From a virus, in IMG/VR virus record IMGVR_UViG_3300042321_002788, positions 1 through 64,000 of that record: a DNA stretch of 64,000 nt, one strand, 5' to 3'. Each line of letters begins with the position of its first letter. Positions within the stretch are counted from its first letter, which is position 1. The position numbers were made by a program, and so were the translations under genes. Positions 33,223-47,132 of the stretch are shown one piece after another. The notes under the pieces were generated by a model. The model saw nothing but the letters and a program-made list of their open reading frames with translations, did not search any database and was not told where the DNA came from.

Positions 33223-33420
33223 ATGAATCTGTACCTAATTAGAGATTCAGTTACATCATTTGGTCTTCTTATTGCAGCAGAATCAGAAACAGAGGCTATC
33301 TGGCATTGGTGCATCTATTTTCATAGCAATAACGACAATCCAATCGAAATAGAAGAAATTAACATTAATACTTCTGGTATCGTTTGGAAATGTGGATGGA
33401 CTACTGATACTAACCCCTAA
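33223..33420 (+). CDS. Small unknown protein
   Basis: A 65-residue protein (MNLYLIRDSVTSFGLLIAA ... WKCGWTTDTNP) with a good AACGAGGAT ribosome binding site. Its stop overlaps the terminase stop by 11 bases, tail to tail. Proteins with this start (a strand ending in AA-x-SE-x-EAI) are known as small phage hypotheticals. Confidence 0.6.
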   Translation: MNLYLIRDSVTSFGLLIAAESETEAIWHWCIYFHSNNDNPIEIEEININTSGIVWKCGWTTDTNP

Positions 33421-36286
33421 AACCGCTCCTAAACCGATTAACAGGAGCAGAAGTAATAATCGTGCTAATAACCTTTTCATGTCCCTGAAACTCATTTTCA
33501 AGGGAATAAAATGCTCCCGATAGGCTATCTACAATGTCATTGGTCGGAGGTGTTTTCTTACTGCCATCAAAACCCTGACAGGCATTTAAAAACCGAGTGT
33601 TCCACGTCCCATCTCTTAAGATAAAGATTTGTCCCCGACTAGCTGCCGTGGCTACTGGTAAAGCTCGTGTTAGCTTATCCCCTTGAGGTGCTATCGCTCT
33701 AATATCATGATTCGGATGATTTTCCCTAATTACATTAGTAATGGTATTCTCAACAAATTTACCGCTCGACCCCCCTTCTTGCTCCCATCTTACAGCTACA
33801 GTTTTCCCATCCAATTCAGCAGTATTTTTAAGCATTAATTCCACTTCCCCGACCTTTTTCTGCTCACAGATATTATCGGCAATCACATAAGTAAATTCCT
33901 TAATCTCAGTTGAATCTGACAGTGTATTTTTAACTCTTTGGTATTTATAAACAAGAGTCCCACTGGTGTAACAGTGATAGTTTTCAGCATTTTCTTTAGC
34001 AGTTGCCGCTAAATCCCAAAACCTCACTTTACCTATTAACTTCCAATCATCGGGTACTTTATCGAGAATCTCAAACCAAGTCCGATCAAATACCGTACCA
34101 GCTTCGTATTTAACTTTCCAGTTACCCCTGAGAAGTCTTTCCCGCTCAATAGGATGTAAAGCGTAAAGGTTAGCCAAATAGGTAGGGTTAACCCTAATTA
34201 AAGCTGGATTATCAAAAATCGTAGCTGGAATAAAAGTAAAACTCTTAATCAGTTTATCTGGTGTAATATTAGTATCTATATTTGATAAAAACTTTTCTCT
34301 TTTATCTTTAGGAATAAGGTCAAAAAGTTCATCTTTAAGACTAAATTTATCGATTAGTTCTTCTTTAGTATCAGCCCAATGGACTACACCTCCTTGCCTA
34401 ACAAAATATCGAACTATTCCCCCTCTTTCTTCAATAGCATACCCAGTCTTAGGGTCGATCCACCAAGAGATAAAACTAGCTACCCAAGAGTCAGCGTCAG
34501 GGTTACAGGTTGCCCTAACTGCGGGTTTAATGCCTGATACCGAACGGTTTCTAGAGAGAAGATAGAAAAATTGCTCCTCTGTAAAGTGAGTTAATTCATC
34601 AAAACCTATCCTTGCAATTTGTCCCCCTTGATAAACATAGACAGTTTTTTCGTATTGTAAATGTCTAAAAGATATTTTCGATCCAAATGGAAATCGCCAC
34701 CCCGGAGGCTTTTCAATAAAATTACCTTTCACTGCTTGATAGATTTTTTGGCTTTCATCTATTAGTCCACCCGCTTGAGTAAATTCAGGATACGTCCGAC
34801 GAAATATAACAGCCCGATAGTCAGGATTGCTAATAAATTCTTGACGGGCAAAATCAATTAATAGCCCGGCACTATTATGCGTAACTATATAATCATCTGT
34901 TAAATAAAGATGATTTGGATTGCTAACAGTAATACAACGAGCGTAATCAATTTCAGTTGGTTCGATAGAAACAATTCTTTTACCCGGCCAACTTGATCCC
35001 CCATTAAATTGTCCAAGCATTTTCGCTCGTTCAACTTTACGCGGCAAACTAAAAAGTAATTCAAGGTGATTTCCCTCAACAGCCACGACGTAAGCTGTAC
35101 GACCATCTAAATGCTCCTCTTTATATCTATATTTTGGTTGTCTTTTCGTAATCTTAGCCATATAACCCAAAGAACGAACCAAAGAAGCTACCTGAATAGC
35201 CAAATCTTTACTGGTTGTGCAATAGGAAACTTCTCTTTTTTTGTCTCCAACAGTTCCATCTGTATCAAAAAGACCTTGAGCAAACGCATAACGAAAATCA
35301 AGAGATGCCGATAAATAGCCGTCGGGAAATACTTTTTCCCACGCTCTTTTTCCTTTATATTCATTGTTGCTTATCCAAGACTTAACCCATTGAACTTTTG
35401 TCGCGTTGACGGATAAAACTTCTAAACGGTTATCTTTTATTGGTGTTCGTGTTTTAACGGTAGCTTCTTTCCCTAAAATATCAACGAGTTTATCAGCAAT
35501 AAATCTATCAGAAGTTGTTACGATAATTGAATCACTACAATAAGAACCATCGCCTATTAAACAACCGTAGAAATAGGCTCTGCCAGTATCAGACCTGTTA
35601 AGTGCCGTAAATTGCAATGGCGCGTTAACTGGAACAATAAACCGTCTTCCTTTGCTAATCTCAGTAATCAACCAATTAGTATCCCTAACCCTTGCTCTTG
35701 TAATGTAATTAGTATTCCATCCTCTAGGTGTCAGATTCTCCTCAATTCGATTAATCCCGTTACTGGACTTCCTGCGGCTATTACGGCGAGATTCCCAAAA
35801 AGACCATAAATGATCGCCACAGCATTCTGTACTTGTACCGTCTTCAAAAGAAACCCGATAAAATTGTTTGAATCCCTGTTCGTGAATTTGGATGATTTCT
35901 TGATACTGACCATCAGGATTCATAATCTTATCCCCGACTTTAAGATCAGAGAAGTCGATCCATTGACCGCTCCATCCCAAGACCTTTGAATCTTTCATTT
36001 GTGATTCATTAAAACTACTATTATATGATAATAGTCTTTTCCCTAAAAGCGCATCCGCCATAGAAAGCATTTTATCTCGAATCGCTTTTCCTGTCTTGGA
36101 TGCACGCCCTGCTTTTCCACTTCCTGCGCCTCCGCCATAGAAGATTACATCAGCGTCAATTTCCCCAAATAAAGCTTGTTTTCCCTCTTGTAATTGAGGA
36201 AAAACAATTTCTTCTTTGGTGTTAACAAGTCGATATTTTTCGGTCGCTGTTTTTATCTTAGATAGATTTCTATAAGATAGTTTCAT
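33410..36286 (-). CDS. terL: Terminase large subunit with intein
   Basis: A 958-residue precursor; removal of the 413-residue intein (residues 59-471) leaves 545, normal for TerL. The ATPase Walker A is split by the intein: GGAGSGK (52-58) before and SAGLLID after. Walker B is IGFDELTHF. The nuclease domain has KVRFWDLAAT, then RWEQEGGS and NDIVDSL as the acidic RuvC-like motifs. TerL cuts concatemers and pumps DNA into the prohead through the portal, which here is 30 kb away on the opposite strand. TerS overlaps its start by 17 bases. Without splicing the ATP site cannot form. Confidence 0.95.
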   Translation of the reverse strand: MKLSYRNLSKIKTATEKYRLVNTKEEIVFPQLQEGKQALFGEIDADVIFYGGGAGSGKAGRASKTGKAIRDKMLSMADALLGKRLLSYNSSFNESQMKDSKVLGWSGQWIDFSDLKVGDKIMNPDGQYQEIIQIHEQGFKQFYRVSFEDGTSTECCGDHLWSFWESRRNSRRKSSNGINRIEENLTPRGWNTNYITRARVRDTNWLITEISKGRRFIVPVNAPLQFTALNRSDTGRAYFYGCLIGDGSYCSDSIIVTTSDRFIADKLVDILGKEATVKTRTPIKDNRLEVLSVNATKVQWVKSWISNNEYKGKRAWEKVFPDGYLSASLDFRYAFAQGLFDTDGTVGDKKREVSYCTTSKDLAIQVASLVRSLGYMAKITKRQPKYRYKEEHLDGRTAYVVAVEGNHLELLFSLPRKVERAKMLGQFNGGSSWPGKRIVSIEPTEIDYARCITVSNPNHLYLTDDYIVTHNSAGLLIDFARQEFISNPDYRAVIFRRTYPEFTQAGGLIDESQKIYQAVKGNFIEKPPGWRFPFGSKISFRHLQYEKTVYVYQGGQIARIGFDELTHFTEEQFFYLLSRNRSVSGIKPAVRATCNPDADSWVASFISWWIDPKTGYAIEERGGIVRYFVRQGGVVHWADTKEELIDKFSLKDELFDLIPKDKREKFLSNIDTNITPDKLIKSFTFIPATIFDNPALIRVNPTYLANLYALHPIERERLLRGNWKVKYEAGTVFDRTWFEILDKVPDDWKLIGKVRFWDLAATAKENAENYHCYTSGTLVYKYQRVKNTLSDSTEIKEFTYVIADNICEQKKVGEVELMLKNTAELDGKTVAVRWEQEGGSSGKFVENTITNVIRENHPNHDIRAIAPQGDKLTRALPVATAASRGQIFILRDGTWNTRFLNACQGFDGSKKTPPTNDIVDSLSGAFYSLENEFQGHEKVISTIITSAPVNRFRSGFRG
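34874..36112 (-). other. Class 3 intein with LAGLIDADG endonuclease
   Basis: A 413-residue intein inserted between Lys and Ser of the Walker A loop. The first intein residue is Ala, not Cys or Ser, so the normal first splicing step is impossible. The class 3 signature is present: Trp103 in block B (CCGDHLW), Cys393 in block F (YARCITV), Thr411 in block G (IVTHN), with Asn413 and the +1 Ser. KVGDKIMNPDG is a block A-like segment set 50 residues in, so the N-terminus is longer than usual. FYGCLIGDGSY and FAQGLFDTDGTV are the two LAGLIDADG motifs of a homing endonuclease. Confidence 0.9.
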
Positions 36287-46017: not shown

Positions 46018-46106
46018 GTCGCGTGTGATTGTTAGCAATTTTACTCAAGACTAAAGATTGTTTGTAATCAGTTATCAGTTATCATCAACTATTTGGGATT
46101 AACAAA

Positions 46107-46820
46107 ATGAACCAATTTACAGAAAAACTACCCAATCAAGTCACATTAGAGATGGTAAGCTTACCAGCAGGTAAATTTCTCATGGGTTCTTCTGAAAGCG
46201 ATGATGAAAAGCCTCAACACCAAGTCAAAGTAAACAGTTTTGCCATTGGCCAATATCCCATTACTCAGGAACAATATCAAAAAGTGATGGGAACCAATCC
46301 TTCTTACTTTAAAAATAATCCCCAAAATCCGGTAGAAAAGGTTAGTTGGGACGATGCTCAAGCCTTTTGTAAAAAATTGAGTCAGCTAACAGGGAAAACC
46401 TATCGCCTACCCACAGAAACTGAATGGGAATACGCTTGTCGGGCGGGGACAACTACTCGCTATTATTTCGGTGATGATGCTAATCAGTTAGGAGATTACG
46501 CTTGGTATGATGGAAATTCTCAAGGGACAACTCATCCTGTGGGACAGAAAAAGCCCAATGGTTGGGGACTCTATGACATGAGTGGCAATGTTTGGGAGTG
46601 GTGCGAAGACGATTGGCACGATAACTATATCGGAGCGCCGACGGATGGATCGGCGTGGTTTATCACGAATGATAATCGTTCTCAGTCTCGTAAGTGTCTG
46701 CGCGGCGGTTCTTGGAGCAGCAACAACCCTAATGGCTGCCGTTCCGCTTTCCGTCTCTACAACGTCCGCCGCGACTACCGCTACATCTATCTCGGTTTTC
46801 GGGTTGTCTGCGACAATTAG
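46107..46820 (+). CDS. FGE-sulfatase-domain protein with retroelement-type variable end
   Basis: A 237-residue protein of the formylglycine-generating-enzyme (C-type lectin) fold: MVSLPAGKFLMGSSESD, QEQYQKVMGTNPSYF, YRLPTETEWEYACRAG, GLYDMSGNVWEWCEDDW, LRGGSWSSNN and GFRVVC. In cyanobacterial diversity-generating retroelements this fold is the usual variable protein and the C-terminus carries ligand-binding variable codons. Here CRSA is followed by F-R-L-Y-N-V-R-R-D-Y-R-Y-I-Y, encoded almost only by NNC codons, as expected from adenine mutagenesis of AAC. No reverse transcriptase or template is in the window. Active-site Cys for formylglycine formation is not evident. Possibly a surface-binding protein. 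Confidence 0.85.
   Translation: MNQFTEKLPNQVTLEMVSLPAGKFLMGSSESDDEKPQHQVKVNSFAIGQYPITQEQYQKVMGTNPSYFKNNPQNPVEKVSWDDAQAFCKKLSQLTGKTYRLPTETEWEYACRAGTTTRYYFGDDANQLGDYAWYDGNSQGTTHPVGQKKPNGWGLYDMSGNVWEWCEDDWHDNYIGAPTDGSAWFITNDNRSQSRKCLRGGSWSSNNPNGCRSAFRLYNVRRDYRYIYLGFRVVCDN
46731..46817 (+). other. Candidate DGR variable region
   Basis: Codons at 46749-46787 read TTC, CGT, CTC, TAC, AAC, GTC, CGC, CGC, GAC, TAC, CGC, TAC, ATC, followed by TAT and CTC. Replacing variable positions with A gives runs of AAC, the usual template codon. The region is much richer in G+C than the rest of the gene and the surrounding DNA. The 3' end (GGTTTTCGGGTTGTCTGC) would be the place of the initiation sequence. Confidence 0.75.
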
Positions 46821-46860
46821 CCGAGTAATCAGTTATCAGCAAATTAATAGGAGTAAAAAT

Positions 46861-47046: not shown

Positions 47047-47132
47047 TAAAATTCAGTTATGCCCTATAGAAATGAGTTATTAAATTAGTTTATCAGTTAT
47101 CGGTTGTTAGCAACGAATCAACGGGAGTAATT

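Follow-up and report, generated by a model that had tools for sequence, protein, structure and literature searches.

An FGE-like phage gene whose hypervariable end was probably made from Microcystis retroelement templates

We examined the gene at positions 46107 to 46820 of the window, the whole stretch of 64,000 nucleotides analysed here, which represents bases 1-64000 of an 82,806-bp viral record. The encoded protein matches the FGE-sulfatase family (PF03781, E 2e-58), and its best solved match in both sequence and fold is variable protein 1 of Treponema denticola (TvpA, 2y3c), the target of a diversity-generating retroelement (DGR). Like the window protein appears to be, TvpA is a DGR-diversified FGE-like lectin; it is bacterial and longer than the phage protein. 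An AlphaFold model of the window protein has moderate confidence overall and low confidence in the variable region (VR) itself, with a good match at the level of the fold. The VR sits at the 3' end of the C-type-lectin/FGE ligand-binding domain. Between the motifs RGGSW and GFRVV, 20 of 28 codons end in C (NNC), versus 34 of 198 in the remainder of the gene (Fisher 1e-8), which confirms the hypervariable, NNC-rich end that an earlier note on this DNA had described. The boundaries given in that note (46731-46817) have to be extended, as similarity to Microcystis template repeats (TRs) runs from 46701 to 46811. The features are:

46107-46820, plus strand: FGE/C-type-lectin variable-protein gene (237 aa; PF03781), with 82% identical Microcystis homologues
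46701-46811, plus strand: DGR-type VR, the part alignable to host TRs (111 bp), scored for A versus non-A mismatches to TR1
46701-46715, plus strand: 5' conserved border CGCGGCGGTTCTTGG, where template similarity starts
46701-46736, plus strand: 5' part of the VR, which bears a type C template fingerprint (TR4 in L251) and one extra AAC-type codon
46737-46811, plus strand: 3' part of the VR, with a TR1/TR3-like fingerprint and 0 non-A mismatches to an inferred unsampled template
46794-46811, plus strand: 3' conserved border GGTTTTCGGGTTGTCTGC, the end of template similarity in the window gene
46812-46820, plus strand: phage-type 3' end GACAATTAG, in place of the tail (e.g. GTATTCGGGAGAACTCT) that VRs beside host reverse transcriptases (RTs) have in common with their TR

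Catalytic FGEs carry a cysteine pair five residues apart (Cys336/Cys341 in the human enzyme). Reading the window protein, C211 and C235 are the only cysteines past RGGSW, and the catalytic pair of true FGEs appears to be absent, going by active-site positions known from general background. Short TAATCAGTTATCAG-type repeats lie on either side of the gene (46060-46090, 46824-46845, and 47085-47105). Repeats of this type are also found downstream of many phage FGE genes and may mark recombination points.

A DNA pattern search of genome contigs recovered AAC-rich copies in Microcystis. In Microcystis genomes and plasmids, a TR that is near-identical to the window VR and built of AAC codons adjoins genes for an RT and Avd. 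The locus L060 is laid out as follows:

L060, 364-705: Avd (PF22296, NF033474)
L060, 1433-2491: RT (PF00078)
L060, at about 2520: TR

Pfam and NCBIfam models confirmed bAvd/Avd and RVT_1 in the Microcystis locus, where Avd, an AAC-rich TR, and an RT occur together as a host DGR. The earlier note had proposed a search for an A-bearing template beside an RT, and Microcystis has one, complete with Avd gene. Loci like L060 were identified in L107, L251, and plasmid p1FD4, and L249 comprises an RT and a template; as grouped here, the host template loci with RT and Avd are L060/L248, L107/L250, L249, L251, and plasmid FD4. Plasmid p1 of NIES-2481 also carries a template. The Microcystis RTs are 66-99% identical to each other, and a full-length RT of this type is encoded in only 4 of 12 Microcystis species genomes. 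Homologues of the phage FGE protein occur in all 12, at 7-17 per genome (best identity 82-83%). We infer that bloom-forming Microcystis is the host of the window phage, based on these homologues (82% identical), the Microcystis templates, and the Microcystis-phage relatives of the FGE gene. A tail-region protein of the window had no match among isolate phages. As a detail of template structure, TR1 (L060 near 2520-2640) has extra bases, TCGCAGTGAGCCTGCCGAATCTGC, between its 3' border and tail, which TR2 does not have.

The closest template to the window VR is TR1, from which it differs at 16 of 31 template-A sites and at 4 of 77 other sites. Three of the four non-A mismatches disappear if the first ~33 nt are taken from a second Microcystis TR type; a mosaic of host TRs with one breakpoint (type C / TR1) leaves one non-A mismatch, and a template inferred from L171, L192, and L197 leaves none. 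The AAC run of the window VR has one extra codon. The exact template was not found in 293 genomes of the order, plasmids, and phage records, for which the mosaic was the best match. The predicted template would consist of a type C 5' third followed by a TR1/TR3-like part with TTCCGCTTACCGT, and would end in GTAGTCTGC.

We then compared 71 distinct viral VRs with five Microcystis templates by alignment. Changes are present at 1096 of 2087 template-A sites (52.5%) versus 346 of 5308 other sites (6.5%), a contrast that is somewhat favoured because the scoring tolerated A mismatches and the best of the five templates was chosen. Ungapped comparisons of same-locus lineages, of near-identical phages, and of Ma-LMM01 with MaMV-DC are independent of that A-tolerant scoring. 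In sister phages the FGE gene occupies the same syntenic locus as in the window, beside tail genes that are 4.5-6.4% divergent. Across six lineages at this locus (the window, L008, L034, L174, L171, and L023), 25 of 27 template-A columns are variable versus 7 of 66 others (Fisher 3e-14); the columns are not fully independent because the lineages are related, and the flanks and non-A columns provide an internal control. The mean pairwise difference is 54% at template-A sites and 3.8% elsewhere. In the phages L225 and L226, all 76 non-A sites agree with a host template and 12-13 of its 29 adenines are changed; the two VRs differ from each other at 11 A sites and no others, and their flanks are ~99% identical. 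Several sister-phage VRs likewise have 0-1 mismatches to host templates over 76 non-A sites. Phages of the group L185 to L233 have VRs that are distinguished by up to 17 A sites and 0-4 non-A sites (upstream flanks mostly 97-99% identical), and the VRs of Ma-LMM01 and MaMV-DC differ at 15/29 A and 7/79 non-A sites (flanks 2-7% different). Several template types are represented among the phage VRs. The variation is thus concentrated at template adenines, the pattern for which the earlier note had suggested examining related phages, and its interpretation of host retroelement-type variation is supported. Composition alone could give NNC codons, and ordinary diversifying selection or codon bias would then account for the gene end with no retroelement involved. 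We assign this explanation next to no weight, since an RT adjoins a template whose variable positions are A and the template type fixes the non-A positions; codon bias as the only cause is ruled out by the A-specific changes in the 71 viral VRs and the six same-locus lineages.

No RT had been seen in the window from its letters alone. An RVT_1 search of the entire 82,806-bp record, window included, agrees, and the ORFs of the last 18.8 kb (64001-82806) include no RT-like gene. The same model, which does find the Microcystis RTs, had no match in any of 50 related records, five of which are isolates whose genomes were deposited as complete (Ma-LMM01, MaMV-DC, MaMV-DL02, MaMV-DH01, and Mic1). Among 2.9 million viral contigs the core template had no exact match, and no RT of the Microcystis type was identified, the search returning 233 more distant relatives of which the best is 45% identical. 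A complete phage DGR of the BPP-1 type, with RT, Avd, and template in the phage, was not found. Many of the records are fragments, and such DGRs do occur on Microcystis plasmids, so a DGR of the phage's own could lie beyond the records sampled, or on a phage-plasmid that accompanies it; the searches of the complete-deposited isolates, of the rest of the 82.8-kb record, and of the viral contigs make this very improbable. Considering both the A-specific variation from host templates and the searches for RT and template in the phages, the variation of the phage VR appears to derive from a host retroelement. Of the three options in the earlier note, a retroelement carried elsewhere in the phage is disfavoured, and a host element acting in trans and a captured variable gene are only partly separated. 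Two further features were observed in this record: a TnpB-like gene beyond the window (L300:4705-6606; record 68705-70606, minus strand), also found in L192, and an intein-like insertion with LAGLIDADG homing-endonuclease domains in the terminase large subunit gene (33410-36286, minus strand), the start of which is near-identical in L034.

The 3' end of the VR bears on how host-made variation reaches the phage. The VRs examined beside an RT (L249, L250, and L251) have ~15-25 further bases in common with their own TR, past the TGC at which similarity ends in the window. We refer to these bases as an IMH-like tail, by analogy with the element of the Bordetella phage (PMC3240598), and their function is putative. 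The tail, as a candidate 3' recognition element, is absent from the window VR and from 65 of the 71 distinct viral VRs; L192, L194, and L197 have it, as do the VRs beside host RTs. The phage L192 is a sister of the window phage (tail genes 95-97% identical) and carries, close to its tail genes, an FGE gene (L192:7448-8401) whose VR retains the full host-type tail, GTATTCGGGAGAACTCTCTAACCC. Intact tails are also found in FGE genes of the Mu-like prophages L194 (3468-4460; Mu transposase domains are present in L194) and L197 (8258-9247), whose VRs differ at 19 of 29 template-A sites. Downstream of the window VR, a search for a BPP-1-like GC-rich hairpin gave at best a 5-bp stem. GC-rich stems of at least 7 bp follow only 3 of 71 viral and 4 of 59 host VRs, so the hairpin is not a feature of the Microcystis DGR family either, and it was rejected as a shared feature, being conserved in neither host nor phage. 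One phage, L217, does have a GC-rich hairpin, CGAGGGG(CTGATT)CCCCTCG, downstream of its VR, and belongs to the group with the cleanest A-only variation.

Host DGRs might also retrohome directly into the window copy during infection, the short border GGTTTTCGGGTTGTCTGC sufficing for recognition. In favour of this, most diversified phage VRs are tail-less, yet in several of them 75-76 of 76 non-A sites agree with host templates, and template similarity ends at the identical base in unrelated phage genes. In the laboratory, RT, Avd, and template supplied in trans from a plasmid do retarget a phage-borne VR in the Bordetella phage BPP-1, a system that requires the analogous element and a hairpin (PMC3240598). 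The window has neither of these, VRs beside host RTs all have the longer tail common to their TR, and the mosaic of template types and a VR that is almost constant in seven contigs also count against current direct targeting, which we consider unlikely for this copy.

The same constancy could indicate that a host variable gene was captured long ago and that its VR now changes by ordinary mutation only. The window VR is identical in four other contigs and one base different in two more, and the MaMV-DC VR equals that of five other isolates despite diverged flanks; MaMV-DC and CH01 have identical VRs with 18/500 upstream differences. From the near-constancy across the seven contigs and the MaMV-DC/CH01 pair we conclude that turnover is slow. 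Against a frozen capture, sister phages at the same locus repeatedly differ at template adenines, with similar flanks and non-A sites, several template types occur among the phages, and near-identical phages such as L225 and L226 have differences confined to adenines. We regard it as distinctly improbable, more so than direct targeting.

In our preferred reading, the gene belongs, as a phage-borne copy, to the Microcystis DGR variable-protein family, its hypervariable end having probably been made by adenine-specific mutagenesis from host TRs and having most likely reached the window copy by recombination. The template repeats, RT, and Avd are found not in the phage but on chromosomes and plasmids of Microcystis. 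When an RT-bearing host is infected or lysogenic, its machinery would vary phage and prophage copies that keep the full tail, presumably by retrohoming in trans into phage DNA, with the sister phage L192 and the Mu-like prophages L194 and L197 as example substrates. VR cassettes would then move among host, prophage, and phage copies by recombination via the conserved 15- and 18-bp borders, and the present window VR would have been acquired by one such transfer. These two steps are proposed because the window copy is tail-less and static, and mosaics and shared VRs occur, yet tail-bearing phage copies exist. For the window copy, import or shuffling of host-made VRs seems likelier than current direct targeting, given its missing tail, its mosaic template, and its near-constancy. 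Mosaic template types are found in the VRs of both the window and L008, and identical VRs occur with different 3' contexts in the phages L007/L008 and L017/L021. In genomes of different Microcystis species, L269/L270 and L271/L272 have identical or near-identical VRs with different 3' ends, as if the cassettes had been moved by recombination. No pair of phage and host VRs was alike beyond chance among 19 sampled host VRs, so we did not observe import from host genes directly. A GTT/GTA difference at a template adenine separates the window from L002/L006; we did not take it for fresh mutagenesis, because it is located at a recombination junction.

As known so far, DGRs are cell- or phage-encoded and vary targets of their own genome. 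Here, several phage families carry the target alone, with template and RT in the host. Cyanobacterial DGRs are known to serve remote variable proteins (PMC7517822), which like the window protein have a C-type-lectin/FGE domain with the VR at the 3' end and template and RT elsewhere. Those targets lie in the same cellular genome as the DGR, whereas here a virus carries the target and its host the template and RT; in that survey, no cyanobacterial DGR was definitively assignable to a prophage (PMC7517822). The BPP-1 DGR similarly introduces A-specific variation at the 3' end of a phage gene with a C-type-lectin fold (Mtd), but BPP-1 supplies RT, Avd, and template from its own genome and targets a tail protein; the Microcystis phages encode none of the three components. 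The survey of Roux et al. (2021) was by its authors' account unable to detect remote targets. In the literature searched, which left subscription journals and preprints mostly outside, we found no report of phage targets served by a host DGR. If our reading is correct, retroelement hypervariation would be a resource common to virus and host, and would explain a hypervariable gene family of Microcystis phages otherwise annotated as "kinase" or hypothetical. The system would also offer a direct test of trans-genomic DGR action.

Given the nearby tail genes, we considered a virion role for the FGE protein in receptor binding. In Ma-LMM01, gp054-gp063, which include the VR gene gp062, form an early-expressed block (PMC5780444), and this argues against a virion role for the Ma-LMM01 relative. 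The variable protein adjoining TR3 in Microcystis combines CHAT, NB-ARC/NACHT, and FGE-VR domains, and resembles DGR-diversified putative antigen sensors with STAND/NACHT domains, for which trans-acting components within a genome have been proposed (PMC10907252). Unlike these sensors, the phage copy is a bare FGE domain with no effector. Because the host protein with this architecture adjoins TR3, the phage FGE could possibly act as a decoy or competitor of host CHAT/STAND-FGE sensors. More speculatively, lytic phages and host might have one mutator in common, the host DGR varying CHAT/STAND-FGE immune-type sensors and the bare, early-expressed FGE domains of Microcystis phages, perhaps acting as decoys or competitors of those sensors, being varied from the same templates; we hold this combined scenario only tentatively. 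It would imply an arms race in which the parasite exploits the diversity generator of its own host. Among host FGE genes, one long reading frame (L268; G051:C165:10913-14875) contains several tandem FGE copies, each with its own VR, and the copies examined end in GTCCCCAATGTGACATC with no tail.
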